Positions 55,509 to 61,579 of a stretch of DNA of 64,000 bases are shown here, in pieces; position 1 is the stretch's first letter, and every line of letters starts with the position of its first letter. The notes beneath the pieces are model-generated. The model was not told where the DNA came from. It worked only from the letters and a program-made list of their open reading frames with translations, and ran no database searches. The DNA lies in contig JAKFVC010000064.1 in the NCBI GenBank assembly GCA_021732415.1, forward strand, positions 30,720 to 94,719, read 5' to 3'. The stretch is from Planctomycetaceae bacterium (GTDB lineage Bacteria; Planctomycetota; Planctomycetia; Planctomycetales; Planctomycetaceae). Both the position numbers and the translations under genes were made by a program.

Positions 55509-56360
55509 TCAGCCAAACCGTCCGGTGATGTAGTCTTCGGTCTCTTTTTCCTTGGGTTTGGTGAAGAGCTGGTCGGTGCGATCCATCTCAATCAGCTTGC
55601 CTTGGAAGAAGAAGGCGGTCCATTCGCTGACGCGGGCGGCCTGCTGCATGTTGTGGGTGACGATGACGATCGTGTAGTTGCGGCGGAGTTCGAAGATCAA
55701 ATCTTCGACGCGGGCCGTCGACGCCGGATCGAGTGCCGAAGCGGGCTCGTCCATCAACAACACTTCGGGATCGGTGGCCAACGCGCGGGCAATACACAGC
55801 CGCTGTTGCTGGCCACCGGACAGGGCGAGGGCCGAATCCTTTAGGCGGTGGCTGACTTCTTCCCACAGGGCGGCTCGTTTGAGGCACGATTCGACAATTT
55901 CGCCGAGTTTCTTGCGGTCGGTCATGCCGGCAATGCGGGGGCCGAAGGCGACGTTGTCGAATACTGATTTGGGGAACGGGTTCGACTTCTGAAAGACCAT
56001 GCCCACGCGTTTCCGGAGTGAGACCACGTCAATGTTTGGGCGATAGATATCGGTTCCGTCGAGCTGCACCGAACCTTCGATGCGGGCTCCATCGACGATA
56101 TCGTTCATGCGGTTCAGCGTGCGCAAGAAGGTACTTTTGCCGCAGCCTGACGGGCCGATCAGTGCGGTGACATTGCGTTGAGGTACCTGGATGCTGATAT
56201 CAAACAGAGCCTGCCGCTGGCCATAATAGAAGTTCAAGTTCTGTGTCTGGATTTTAGGCATGCCGGTATCGTGCGTTCCATGGACCGTTGAGCCTTGCCC
56301 TTGATGGGGTGGCTGTCCGGCTTTTTTCTCGGCGATAACTTGGCTTAATGACGGGAGCAC
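55509..56360 (-). CDS. pstB: Phosphate ABC transporter ATP-binding protein PstB
   Basis: 283 residues, GTG start with GGAG 7 nt upstream; the normal PstB core starts near residue 34 ([14 protein letters not shown]), so there is an N-terminal extension. Walker [10 protein letters not shown] (69-77), ABC signature LSGGQQQR (180-187) and Walker B LLMDEP (201-206) are present, with the PstB-specific segments TLNRMNDIV and [20 protein letters not shown]. It powers high-affinity phosphate uptake with PstC and PstA. It is last in the minus-strand pstS-pstC-pstA-pstB order; a 189-bp gap separates it from pstA, and no phoU follows. Confidence 0.96.
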
Positions 56361-56549: not shown

Positions 56550-57527
56550 TTACCAGCGAATCCAGCTCTGGAAACGCTGGCGAATGATGACGGCGGTCGT
56601 ATTCATCAGCAATAACACTGCCAGCAACACGACAATGCCGGCCGCTGACAGAGATTGATAGATTTCATCTGGTTGCGAGGCCCAATTGTAAATCACCAGC
56701 GGCATCGCGGTGAACCGGTCAAATGGGGCCTGGATAATTCCGTGCGGTTTGGTGAAGAAATCGGACACGCTGCCGATATTGCCGGGGGTAGAGCTGACGT
56801 AGGTCAACGCCCCGATCATGATCAACGGCGCCGATTCCCCGACCGCTCGCGACAAGGCCAGGATGATTCCGGTCAAAATTCCCGGCAACGACGCGGGCAA
56901 TACCTGATAACGAATGGTCTGCCACTGTGTCGCGCCCAATGCCAGCGAGGAATGCCGCAAAGAGGCGGGGATCGATCGCAGTGCTTCTTGCGTGGAAATG
57001 ATCACGACCGGCAGAATCAGCAGACTCAGGGTGAGGGCGCCGGTTAAGACCTTGTCACCAAACGGCAAGTGCCAGACGGCTTCACGTGGCCAGTCACCAA
57101 ACACTCCGAACATATGTCCGAAAACGGTGACTCCCAGGATGCCGTACACGACGGACGGCACGCCTGCCAGGTTGAGAATATTCAATTGAATGAGCCGCGT
57201 CACCCAATTCGGTTTCGCGTATTCTTCGAGGTACACGGCCGCCCCAATGCCGACCGGGATCGAGAACATGGCGGTCAGGATGATCAGCCAGAAGCTGCCC
57301 CACAAACCGGCTTTAATACCGGCGGTCTCGGGTTCGATTTGCGAATCGAAGTGGGTCAGGAATCCCCAATTGAGATGCGGCCAGCCTTTCACCACGACTC
57401 CGACCAGCATGATCGCCAGGAAGAGCAAACACATCCAGGTGGCAATCGCGCAGGCCCATTCAAACATCCGGCCCCAGCGATGCCGTGCTGCCAATTGCGG
57501 ATCGGTAGAAAATGACGCTTCGTTCAT
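56550..57527 (-). CDS. pstA: Phosphate ABC transporter permease PstA
   Basis: 325 residues with six membrane spans. The start overlaps the pstC stop by 4 bp (ATGA), so the two are translationally coupled. The permease loop ([50 protein letters not shown]) is the EAA-type contact for PstB. The long N-terminus and periplasmic segment ([20 protein letters not shown]) are typical of PstA. It forms the inner-membrane channel with PstC. Confidence 0.94.
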
Positions 57528-58480
57528 TGGTACACATTCCGATAACGCCGGAGAATGAATCGCGCGATGATGTTCATCACGAGCGTAATCAGGAACAACG
57601 ACATGGCCACGACGTACAGACTGCGATACTCGATCGAGCCAACCGATGCTTCGCCCAGGCTGACCATCACGATGTAGGCTGTCATCGTTTCAATCGACCG
57701 GAAGATATTTAATGACAGATCAGGCTGGCTGCCCGCCGCGATCGTCACGGCCATCGTTTCACCGACCGCTCGCGACAGTGCGAGGAGAAACGCGGCCATG
57801 ATGCCCGACAGGGCGGCTGGCAATACGATTCGCACGCTGACATCGAACTTAGTCGAACCCAACGCTAGACCGGCCTCGCGCAGACCGCGTGGCACAGACC
57901 GCAGGACGTCTTCGCTCAAGGAAGAAATCGTCGGGACAATCATGATGCCGACTACGATTCCCGCACTGAGCACGTTGAACCCGCCGACCTCAATCCCGAA
58001 CACGTTCATGAACAGCGGTTGCAGGACATAAGGGGTCAAAAACACCAATGCGAAGTAACCGTAGACAATCGACGGAATGCCCGCGAGCACCTCCAGTGTC
58101 GGCTTCAGGTAGGAGCGGCTGCGTTCGGAGGCGTATTCACTGAGATAGAGTGCCGACAGCAGGCCGAGCGGCATGCCGATCAACCCGGCGATACCCGCAA
58201 TCAGGAACGTACCGCACGCCAGGGGCCAGATCCCAAACCGGGGATTGTCCTGTGACTGAGGCTGCCAGACGGTGTCACCGAAAAACGAGACCACCGAGAC
58301 TTGCGAGAAGAACAGTACCGTCTCTGAAAACAGAACCAGAATGATTCCGGCCGTGGTGGCGACCGATAACAGCGCGCAACCGAACAAGACCAGCCGAATG
58401 CACTGTTCTTTGAGTGTTGTCAGCGACCACCGCTTTTGCAGCGAGGGCCGTTCAGCAGCGGACTGCGTGGCAATAGTCAA
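57524..58480 (-). CDS. pstC: Phosphate ABC transporter permease PstC
   Basis: 318 residues with six membrane spans, TTG start. PstC signatures: [52 protein letters not shown], and the EAA-type loop [36 protein letters not shown] is typical of PstC. Charged residues in the membrane segments that carry phosphate are conserved in this family. It is coupled to pstA by a 4-bp overlap and separated from pstS by a 171-bp gap containing a stem-loop. Confidence 0.94.
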
Positions 58481-58489
58481 ACGGGCACC

Positions 58490-58636
58490 TGTAGCCCGAC
58501 TCTCTGAGTCGGGAGTTTATTTGATATCACATCCCCACCGAGCTTGTCTCGGTGGTTGTGGGGCCTCTGCACTACTTCCGGTTCCGGCCTCTGCGTAGTG
58601 CAAAGGCCCGAATCCACCGAGACAAGCTCGGTGGGG
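58490..58636. repeat. Nested inverted repeat between pstS and pstC
   Basis: Outer arms 58531-58555 and 58614-58636 (CCCCACCGAGCTTGTCTCGG and complement); inner arms GGCCTCTGCACTAC (58562) and GTAGTGCAAAGGCC (58595). A family B unit (TGTAGCCCGACTCTCTGAGT) lies at 58490. In the pst operon this hairpin may reduce read-through or stabilise the pstS mRNA, giving more binding protein than permease. Confidence 0.85.
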
Positions 58637-58651
58637 TTTAGTTGGAGCCTC

Positions 58652-59704
58652 TTATTTCTTCTCAGTCTTAGCAGGAATAATCCCCACCGCCTTGAGCTTC
58701 TTCCGGTTCTTATCGTAGTAGGAGTAACCGAAATACCCCAGTGCATGCTTGTTGGTCGAAATCCCGATGACCAGTTGATTGTCTTCAGAACTGGCCGTGT
58801 AGTCGGAACGGCTGGATTTGGCCTTGCCGACGATCACTTCCGTAAAATAGTCGAACGTTCCAGAATCGGTATCCGCGCCGAACAATTCGATGTCGACGTC
58901 AGGCCAGGCGGGATTCAGTTCCTTCCATTTCTTGATCTTACTCTCGGGTTCCCACAAAGCCTTCAATTGTTCGACCGTCAGGCAACTACACCAGTCGTTG
59001 GCAGGATTGACGCAGACCGTGAGTCCGTCAATGCAGACGGTCAGCTCGATGTATTCGACCTGATTCGCTTTGCATTTGTCGATTTCACTTTGTTTGATGG
59101 GACGTGACGCATTGCTGATGTCCGTTTCACCGATGCAAAACTTCTCAAACCCCCCGCCCGTGCCCTTCTTGCCGACCGTGACGCGAACATTTTCATTCGC
59201 TTTTTCGAAGAGTTCGGCGGCGACCACACTGAACGGAAAAACGGTGCTCGAACCGTTGGCCGAAACGGATCCTGAAGTGAGCTTCTCAGGGATCTTGACG
59301 TCGGCAATTTCCGCTTCGAGTTTGGCCTGTTGTTCCTTGAGCAAGGATTCCTTCAATTTGATGAAGCCGGCTTTTTCGACATAGTCCTGGGCCTTGCCAA
59401 GCAGTACCTTGACGTACCCAGCGACTTCGGGCTTCTGCAAAGCCTTCTTATTGACGTAAACGAACAACGGTCGGGACAACGGGGTGTATTCACCCTTTTC
59501 AATGGTTTCCAGGCTGGGCACAACCGCCCCTTCACAGCCCGGCACATCGGCCACCGACGCCGCTTCCTTAGGAGCCGTCGCTCCCGTGGTCCCCCCGGTA
59601 GCACCACCCGTTGGACCTTCCTTCTTTTTCTCAGCACACCCGGCCACCAGGCTCAATACCAACACCAGACAGGCCCATTTGGACCACTGTTGTCCAGAAC
59701 GCAT
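58652..59704 (-). CDS. pstS: PstS phosphate-binding lipoprotein with permuted domain order
   Basis: 350 residues, AAGGAAG 11 nt before the ATG. A lipoprotein signal ends at LVAGC (Cys23), then a Gly/Thr linker. Residues 56-131 (CEGAVVPSLETIEKGEYTPL, SRPLFVYVNKKALQKPEV, LKESLLKEQQAKLE) match the C-terminal part of ordinary PstS, while residues 145-342 match its N-terminal and central parts: NGSSTVFPFSVVAAELFE, KKGTGGGFEKFCIGETDISN, ASRPI, VNPANDW, TDSGTFDYFTEVIVG, ending LGYFGYSYYDKNRKKLKAV, after which the usual PstS would continue with the VPS...TPLSRPL segment. The phosphate-binding Ser/Thr/Gly/Asp residues are kept. It is therefore a circular permutation, not a truncation. It is the first gene of the pst operon and presumably functional. 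Confidence 0.88.
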   Translation of the reverse strand: MRSGQQWSKWACLVLVLSLVAGCAEKKKEGPTGGATGGTTGATAPKEAASVADVPGCEGAVVPSLETIEKGEYTPLSRPLFVYVNKKALQKPEVAGYVKVLLGKAQDYVEKAGFIKLKESLLKEQQAKLEAEIADVKIPEKLTSGSVSANGSSTVFPFSVVAAELFEKANENVRVTVGKKGTGGGFEKFCIGETDISNASRPIKQSEIDKCKANQVEYIELTVCIDGLTVCVNPANDWCSCLTVEQLKALWEPESKIKKWKELNPAWPDVDIELFGADTDSGTFDYFTEVIVGKAKSSRSDYTASSEDNQLVIGISTNKHALGYFGYSYYDKNRKKLKAVGIIPAKTEKK

Positions 59705-60104: not shown

Positions 60105-60269
60105 GATCGTAGGATGGCCGCCCCGGCCGTCTGCTTTCGACTCTCAAAAATCAACCGAGTCAAAGTGCCAATCCAAACAGTGTGCCGCAAATTTCAGAGC
60201 CCTCTTTGAATTGTTTGCCCAAATTGCTCGTCGGCAGTTGGGCACTCGACGGCCGGGGCGGCCATCCTA
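60105..60269. repeat. Family D inverted pair (GGCCGGGGCGGCC)
   Basis: A minus copy (TAGGATGGCCGCCCCGGCCG at about 60110) and a plus copy (CGGCCGGGGCGGCCATCCTA ending 60269) face each other 100 bp apart. A further plus copy is at about 55418. The final CTA of the right arm is the TAG stop codon of the cysteine desulfurase gene. Confidence 0.85.
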
Positions 60270-61436
60270 TGCCTGTCCGCGTAACCGCCGAACCGTCTCG
60301 GCCACATAGTTGATCGTGAAATCGATCTGCTCGGCAGTTGTTTCACGGCCGAGTCCAAATCGCAGGCTCGCCAGCGAGCGGGCTTCCGAGATCCCCATGG
60401 CTCGCAGGACATGACTGGGTTCCGGATCGGCCGAGGTGCATGCAGATCCGGAGCTGACGGCGATCTCTTTAAGATTGGCGAGCAGGGCTGCTCCATCGAT
60501 ACCGAGAAAACTGACGTGCATGTTGCCCGGCAGTCGCCTGAAGTTTCCTTCAGAATTGGGCTCTTCGGAGGGGCCGTTAAAATCGATCCCTTGCAGTTTG
60601 TGTCGCAGTCCGTAACGCAGTCGATGAGCCAAACCTGCCAGCCGTTTGGCCTCGGCGGCCATCTCCTGCCCCGCGATTTCGCAAGCCGCTCCCAGTCCCA
60701 CAATTAACGCGACGGGCGAGGTGCCACTCCGTAGCCGGCCTTCATGTCCACCACCGTCGAACAGCGGCTCCAGGCGTATGCGCGGTTCTCCCTGTCTCAC
60801 GACCAGTGCACCGATTCCTTGTGGCGCATACAGCTTGTGCCCCGATAGACTCAGCAGGTCGACATCAATTCGCCCCAAATCGAGCGGCAGTTTGCCTACC
60901 GCTTGTGCGGCATCGGTATGCAGAAGTACGCCACGGAGTTTGCAGAGCAGGTTGATCTCCGAGATGGGCTGAATTGTTCCGACCTCATTGTTCGCCCACA
61001 TCACCGAAACCAGGACGGTCTCCGGTCTGATGGCATCGGCAATCTGTTTGGGGGAGACTTCACCATTGCCATCCACGGGGACAATCGTGACACCGTATCC
61101 CTGCCGTTGCAGCTTCTTCAGCGGATCGAGCACCGCCTTATGCTCGGTGGCCACAGTGACGACGTGACTGCGTGCGGGGGCCGCACGCAGGACACCCTTC
61201 AACGCGAGATTGTTGGCTTCCGTGGCCCCGCTCGTGAAGACGATGGACTTGGGCGTGACATTCAACAAGTCCGCGACTTGCTGCCGGGCCTTCTCGACTG
61301 CTTCTGCGGCACGCCAACCGAACGCATGGTTGACGCTGGCCGCATTCCCGAATTGCTCGCGGAAATAAGGCAGCATCCGCTCGAGAACGCGTTCATCGAC
61401 GGGCGTGGTGGAATGATGGTCGAGGTAAATCGGCAT
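60267..61436 (-). CDS. Cysteine desulfurase (IscS/NifS family)
   Basis: 389 residues from ATG 61436 (an upstream start at 61454 adds 6 residues). It converts cysteine to alanine and enzyme-bound persulfide, supplying sulfur for Fe-S clusters or tRNA thiolation. PLP-site motifs are intact: YLDHHSTTPVDERVL, FTSGATEANNLAL, ATEHKAVLDP, and SLSGHKLYAPQGIGALVV with Lys201. The catalytic Cys333 lies in SSGSACTSADPEPSHVL, the longer-loop IscS/NifS arrangement. No iscU, iscR or nifU is adjacent. The stop TAG is supplied by a family D repeat end. Confidence 0.93.
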   Translation of the reverse strand: MPIYLDHHSTTPVDERVLERMLPYFREQFGNAASVNHAFGWRAAEAVEKARQQVADLLNVTPKSIVFTSGATEANNLALKGVLRAAPARSHVVTVATEHKAVLDPLKKLQRQGYGVTIVPVDGNGEVSPKQIADAIRPETVLVSVMWANNEVGTIQPISEINLLCKLRGVLLHTDAAQAVGKLPLDLGRIDVDLLSLSGHKLYAPQGIGALVVRQGEPRIRLEPLFDGGGHEGRLRSGTSPVALIVGLGAACEIAGQEMAAEAKRLAGLAHRLRYGLRHKLQGIDFNGPSEEPNSEGNFRRLPGNMHVSFLGIDGAALLANLKEIAVSSGSACTSADPEPSHVLRAMGISEARSLASLRFGLGRETTAEQIDFTINYVAETVRRLRGQA

Positions 61437-61579
61437 TGAATCGGGATCTCGCAAAAAGCGAATTGGCCACAGGAAATTCTATCACTCAGGCGTTGTTGCG
61501 ATACAATGGAGGCTCTCGATTTCGAAGCGCATGGCGAAATTCCAATTAACTGATGTGTGGCTGTTCGAGACGTTGCTCA

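Follow-up and report, generated by a model that had tools for sequence, protein, structure and literature searches.

Does the first gene of the pst operon found in a 64,000-nucleotide stretch of Planctomycetaceae bacterium contig JAKFVC010000064.1 (assembly GCA_021732415.1, positions 30,720 to 94,719; this whole stretch is referred to here as the window) encode a PstS phosphate-binding protein whose parts follow each other in circularly permuted order and, if so, how did this order come about? The findings considered below show this PstS to be permuted at the loop joining the core to the C-terminal segment (C-segment), and make it probable that the protein functions with PstCAB and that the two orders have been repeatedly exchanged in this planctomycete lineage.

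The PstS family profile TIGR02136 recognized the protein (270.6 bits; cut-off 206.6) in two separate stretches. The best match among PDB sequences was 4jwo_A from Planctomyces limnophilus (341 amino acids, aa), with the core (query residues 142-346) corresponding to 4jwo_A residues 58-262 (246 bits) and the C-segment (query residues 61-129) corresponding to residues 267-336 (50.8 bits; i-Evalue 1.2e-12). As both blocks are common to the two proteins but reversed along the chain, the order in the window protein is C-segment, then core. The protein is thus a family member by profile that departs from the ordinary order of core followed by C-segment; each part is present once, the old ends are joined and the new ends lie within the old chain, as in a circular permutant. 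A permutation with each part present once is what the initial annotation had proposed, together with separate alignment of the two blocks to ordinary PstS, and the boundaries given there (56-131 and 145-342) were correct to within a few residues, with residues 57-131 and 140-342 being adopted here. The gene is divided as follows:

58652..59704, (-) strand: pstS, circularly permuted, ATG start, 350 aa (open reading frame [ORF], TIGR02136 and PDB sequence match)
59636..59704, (-) strand: signal peptide with lipobox LVAGC, Cys23 (residues 1-23; sequence, pattern scan)
59537..59635, (-) strand: G/T/A-rich spacer (residues 24-56; sequence, low model confidence)
59312..59536, (-) strand: C-segment, C-terminal in ordinary PstS (residues 57-131; 4jwo alignment)
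59288..59311, (-) strand: linker newly joining the C-segment to the core (residues 132-139)
58679..59287, (-) strand: PstS core with motifs GSST, GTG and SGT (residues 140-342; profile and 4jwo alignment)
58655..58678, (-) strand: post-core tail, where ordinary PstS runs on into the C-segment (residues 343-350)

The LVAGC motif with Cys23 is taken by us to be a lipobox, in which case the lipid tether, attached to the core in ordinary PstS, would here be attached to what was the C-terminal segment. When 74 permuted proteins were aligned, G151-V155 (GSST-V), G181-G183 (GTG), R201, D226 and S281-T283 (SGT) proved invariant; these residues presumably bind phosphate. Third-position G+C is alike in the two blocks (0.667 and 0.670), and so offers no hint of a foreign block.

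No other pstS locus was recovered from the 9.87 Mb, 98.32% complete source genome when either the protein or PF12849 served as query. Within the window and its flanks, tblastn revealed no second pstS copy, the only matches being the gene itself, a weak reverse-strand match inside pstS (E 0.3-0.4) and a chance match elsewhere (E 6.2). Nor were a C-terminal copy or its remnants detected near pstS in this region by tblastn and blastn, such that the downstream second C-terminal copy which the initial annotation had named as speaking against a permutation was sought and not found. Given the single locus returned by both genome searches, any Pst phosphate uptake in the source cell would likely use the permuted PstS.

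The predicted structure of the protein is a confident model, apart from spacer residues 24-56, for which the predicted local distance difference test (pLDDT) score is low. The best sequence and fold matches were PstS proteins, with the core being 56% identical to that of 4jwo upon structure alignment. The model predicts the two lobes typical of PstS, differing solely in how the chain is connected, and the permuted protein likely still folds and binds phosphate as ordinary PstS does, on behalf of the adjoining PstCAB. On the three-dimensional placement of residues 57-131, the other point named in the initial annotation as able to speak against a permutation, this model and the match to 4h1x described below bear only indirectly.

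The distribution of the permuted order was next considered. Three protein searches with permuted queries, in each of which the best 120 matches were listed, yielded 256 homologues, with proportions that do not reflect prevalence. The order was C-segment-core in 127, core-C-segment in 106, core-C-segment-core-C-segment in 20, core-C-segment-core in two and C-segment-core-C-segment in one. In the family of the source organism, matches were counted at E 1e-20, with the lists covering the stronger matches; 136 of 170 genomes contained a match, ten in permuted order, namely all four genomes of the window's genus and G435, G291, G525, G523, G450 and G448. Among 397 genomes sampled from the class, 249 gave a match, with eight being permuted among the matches listed, including G536 and G696 from two other families. 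In the phylum sample, 248 of 392 genomes gave a match, and only the source genome (G000) and G291 were permuted across both blocks among the matches listed. A scan of genome contigs from several phyla revealed no permuted pstS in the best 80 loci of a longer list, and one tandem gene, L062. The search of planctomycete genomes called for at the outset thus revealed the same order to recur within the family and in two further families, and both orders were found within pst operons among relatives. Annotation by TIGR02136 or PF12849 overlooks the changed block order.

Such recurrence bears on the prospect that the order reflects an assembly or annotation artefact. Although many of the records are metagenome assemblies, the same order is seen in four same-genus assemblies, in the single-contig G291 and G696 and in many unrelated records. 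Given its presence in 127 of 256 homologues, in three other same-genus genomes and in single-contig G291, chance or misassembly was excluded, and an artefact is considered exceedingly improbable.

To place the two orders on trees, both blocks were set in one register before inference. In a pstS tree built on 73 rows (selected out of 249 on the basis of identity), seven changes of the permuted label are required, four of them forced by starred branches, and a single permuted clade was rejected by the approximately unbiased test (log-likelihood 116 lower, p 4.2e-4). With 95 of 358 rows, 14 changes were needed, seven being forced, while the core block alone from the same 95 rows likewise called for 14 changes and rejected one clade (log-likelihood 252 lower). 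The same picture emerged when pstS was left aside. A pstC+pstA+pstB tree of 51 of 57 operons required four changes, all forced, and rejected one clade (log-likelihood 175 lower, p 5.8e-20). A pstC+pstA tree of 60 of 72 operons, including that of G536, required five changes, four of them forced; here, rows in which a part was absent or too long were left out, as were four operons on long branches. Because the pstS trees and the separate pstC/A/B tree both reject a single permuted clade, the permuted genes are, by their sequences, not one clade, and the order has changed at least four times. Accordingly, a single origin of the permuted order was discarded on the basis of the pstS, core-only and operon trees, and the mapping onto trees first suggested for this gene points to several changes rather than one.

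The dispersal of permuted genomes over the pstC/A/B tree could also be explained were a gene permuted once then carried by horizontal transfer into several genomes. Transfer of pstS alone would, however, keep the permuted genes together in the pstS tree, and this is not so, even with the core block alone. Moreover, both orders occupy one locus in genus g2, with the same gene upstream. There, G525 and G523 are permuted while G194 and G137 are normal, the upstream neighbour of pstS is identical in kind in all four (84-85% identical between orders) and the G525/G523 pair is sister to the G194/G137 pair on the operon tree. Horizontal transfer is therefore thought very unlikely.

Opposite orders are also seen in pairs of close relatives. 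The permuted P0228 shares 86% overall identity with P0069, which is of normal order (core, 87%; C-segment, 84%), and their signal peptides are similar, both ending in MAGCGDGSA. Other pairs in opposite orders are P0157/P0156 (81%), P0034/P0050 (76%) and P0036/P0219 (75%). Gene conversion in the shared core could imitate such a pattern, had one or a few permutations been followed by homogenization of once-coexisting permuted and normal copies that left their order unchanged. Indeed, the copies within three tandem proteins (P0013, P0020 and L062) are 89-98% identical. Against this, no further match at E 1e-20 is found in any of the ten permuted family genomes, and the likeness of P0228 and P0069 extends over both blocks as well as the signal peptide. 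As such, gene conversion is deemed an unlikely explanation.

How might one order give rise to the other? At each change, an in-frame tandem duplication would generate core-C-segment-core-C-segment, or its permuted counterpart, from which one outer block would then be lost at each end. The loop would serve as a flexible linker, where cutting comes at little cost. Near-identical tandem proteins are the intermediates expected under permutation by duplication (PMC3320104), and such intermediates have been recorded in DNA methyltransferases in the same source. The initial annotation had likewise raised tandem duplication and trimming, a proposal that fits the 20 core-C-segment-core-C-segment proteins among the 256 homologues and finds no counterpart among the 72 same-phylum loci, leaving the route inferred. 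Since both tandem genes for which an organism is named, L062 and P0180, come from Chloroflexota and none appears in the same-phylum loci, the duplication step rests on analogy.

P0115, scored as C-segment-core-C-segment, contains a partial C-segment at its start and an unrelated-looking end, and was set aside as an odd fragment rather than an intermediate. In P0031, P0062, P0133, P0180 and P0245, the first core lacks its front, and these were considered incomplete or truncated tandems. Separately, double PstS proteins containing two nearly identical full units per chain were noted (L062, 1081-3481; P0020, P0121-P0131 and P0213), amounting to L062 and 20 of the 256 homologues; many of those 570-577 aa long have the core at their very start, and no signal peptide is visible in them. 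P0215, P0187 and P0216, from contigs of up to 3.9 Mb, are chains that contain either an additional, incomplete core or a shortened core flanked by two C-segments, possibly due to recombination inside a tandem pstS.

Fission and fusion, whereby the core and the C-segment were split into separate genes and rejoined in opposite order, is also an acknowledged route to circular permutation (PMC3320104). Yet a split pstS was seen in none of the 72 loci. The sole core-only case, L190 (G459:C236), is a PstS core that lacks both the C-segment and a signal peptide; no ORF for a C-segment lies nearby, and neither pstC nor pstA, nor any other pst neighbour, was detected there. L190 is probably a decayed stray copy, and fission followed by fusion is regarded as quite improbable.

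Returning to tandem duplication and trimming at the loop, the new ends fall in the linker that leads from the core strand (LKAVGI.P) into the C-segment. Residues preceding the C-segment in permuted proteins resemble the linker of their normal relatives, as in YLPxGAV (P0157/P0156) and ECKGA (P0228/P0069). The core-to-C-segment linker has a median of seven residues in 106 normal proteins, while the C-segment-to-core linker spans 12-21 residues in 127 permuted proteins (median 16). Linkers of 22-31 residues appear in four of 225 normal genes (P0219, P0156, P0155 and L031, the last two being identical), each of which is 75-81% identical to permuted relatives and contains a linker resembling a lipoprotein spacer. 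This suggests that the long-linker normal genes are reversions from a permuted ancestor, such that some genes would have gone back to the normal order while keeping a spacer-like stretch as an over-long internal linker. With somewhat better than even confidence, planctomycete pstS can be viewed as a reversible two-state gene, with many back-and-forth swaps at one loop and some reversions leaving a lipoprotein spacer inside the protein. If so, circular permutation could be studied in pstS as an experiment set up by nature, with close relatives in both orders.

Several observations weigh against repeated exchange of the two orders in a protein of unchanged fold. Foldseek and VIA-align, neither of which re-orders chains, aligned only the core to 4jwo, and the single-sequence model of P0228 has a pLDDT of 34. 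Bootstrapping of the 73-row and 95-row pstS trees was unsettled, with many deep branches being weak, and the counts of changes are blind to gain versus loss. G024, assigned to genus g2 by its code, is of normal order, has a different upstream gene and lies apart on the operon tree. The 72 loci examined from the same phylum revealed no tandem or half-trimmed forms, and the named tandems are from Chloroflexota. Lastly, linker length and nearness to permuted genes are related with a rho of 0.65 that is confounded by relatedness, and the normal groups L023 and L027 lie near permuted ones and have short linkers of five residues.

In the window, pstS is the first gene of the operon and is followed by:

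57524..58480, (-) strand: pstC, permease (TIGR02138, 276.3 bits; cut-off 196.45)
56550..57527, (-) strand: pstA, permease (TIGR00974, 252.4 bits; cut-off 193.45)
55509..56360, (-) strand: pstB, ATPase (TIGR00972, 402.1 bits; cut-off 343.2)

With all three profiles being above their cut-offs, the description of an otherwise normal pst operon headed by the permuted gene holds. Between pstS and pstC, a nested inverted repeat (window 58525-58640; RNA fold -85.7 kcal/mol, z -10.5) is found. It is present at seven places in the genome (14 BLAST matches; exact arm four times), a recurrence in light of which it looks like a dispersed element of the repetitive extragenic palindromic or miniature inverted-repeat transposable element kind. 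PhoU domains of the source genome are encoded on contigs C87 and C123, apart from the pst genes. In many relatives, a conserved ORF of 222-244 aa directly follows pstB, which we take to be phoU. Upstream of pstS, a cysteine desulfurase of the IscS/NifS kind (window 60267-61454, (-) strand) scored under all curated cut-offs.

In the literature searched, with most subscription papers lying outside its scope, neither a permuted PstS nor a repeated order change in PstS was found to be described, in agreement with the initial annotation, whose author knew of no such description, and no paper contained the word 4H1X. By the present comparison, 4h1x (PstS 2, SP_2084, Streptococcus pneumoniae TIGR4) is likewise a circularly permuted PstS, albeit of a different kind. 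In structure comparison, the C-segment and N-half of the model of the window protein match 4h1x, while 4jwo aligned over the core only. In a single stretch, residues 84-263 of the 4h1x chain match positions 51-255 of the permuted profile; against a profile ordered second core half-C-segment-first core half, 4h1x also aligned in one stretch (profile 7-286 to chain 11-263), while of 12 other chains, seven aligned in two stretches, four over one part only and one not at all. The 4h1x chain begins with the second core half, its cut thus falling within the core and ahead of the half that contains SGT, whereas the window protein is cut between core and C-segment. Going by these alignments, a permuted PstS may already be in the PDB, unremarked.

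Canonical PstS (TIGR02136; 4jwo) contains the same two blocks and motifs and differs from the window protein in not having the C-segment at the N-terminus. Further afield, saposins and DNA methyltransferases share the proposed duplication route and are unrelated proteins; the part of that review consulted mentions no near-identical proteins in opposite orders, unlike the PstS pairs (PMC3320104). TpMglB-2 (Tp0684) of Treponema pallidum is a permuted, glucose-binding protein of the ATP-binding cassette kind, proposed as Type Ic/Cluster Bc, for which ligand binding and conformational change were measured by its authors; being Type I/Cluster B, it differs from the window PstS in family and cut, and no repeated change of order is reported in the portion of the paper seen (PMC4990184). 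Permuted binding proteins as such were therefore already known; the novelty lies in a change of order that recurs at one locus and likely runs both ways.

Natural circular permutations are commonly regarded as single old events separating distant proteins. In pstS, an essential-looking transport gene, both orders exist at up to 86% identity, and trees from two independent data sets each call for four or more changes. Questions of long standing, namely the DNA-level origin of a permutation, its neutrality and reversibility, and the relevance of the site of the lipid tether to a binding protein, can therefore be put directly to the test.
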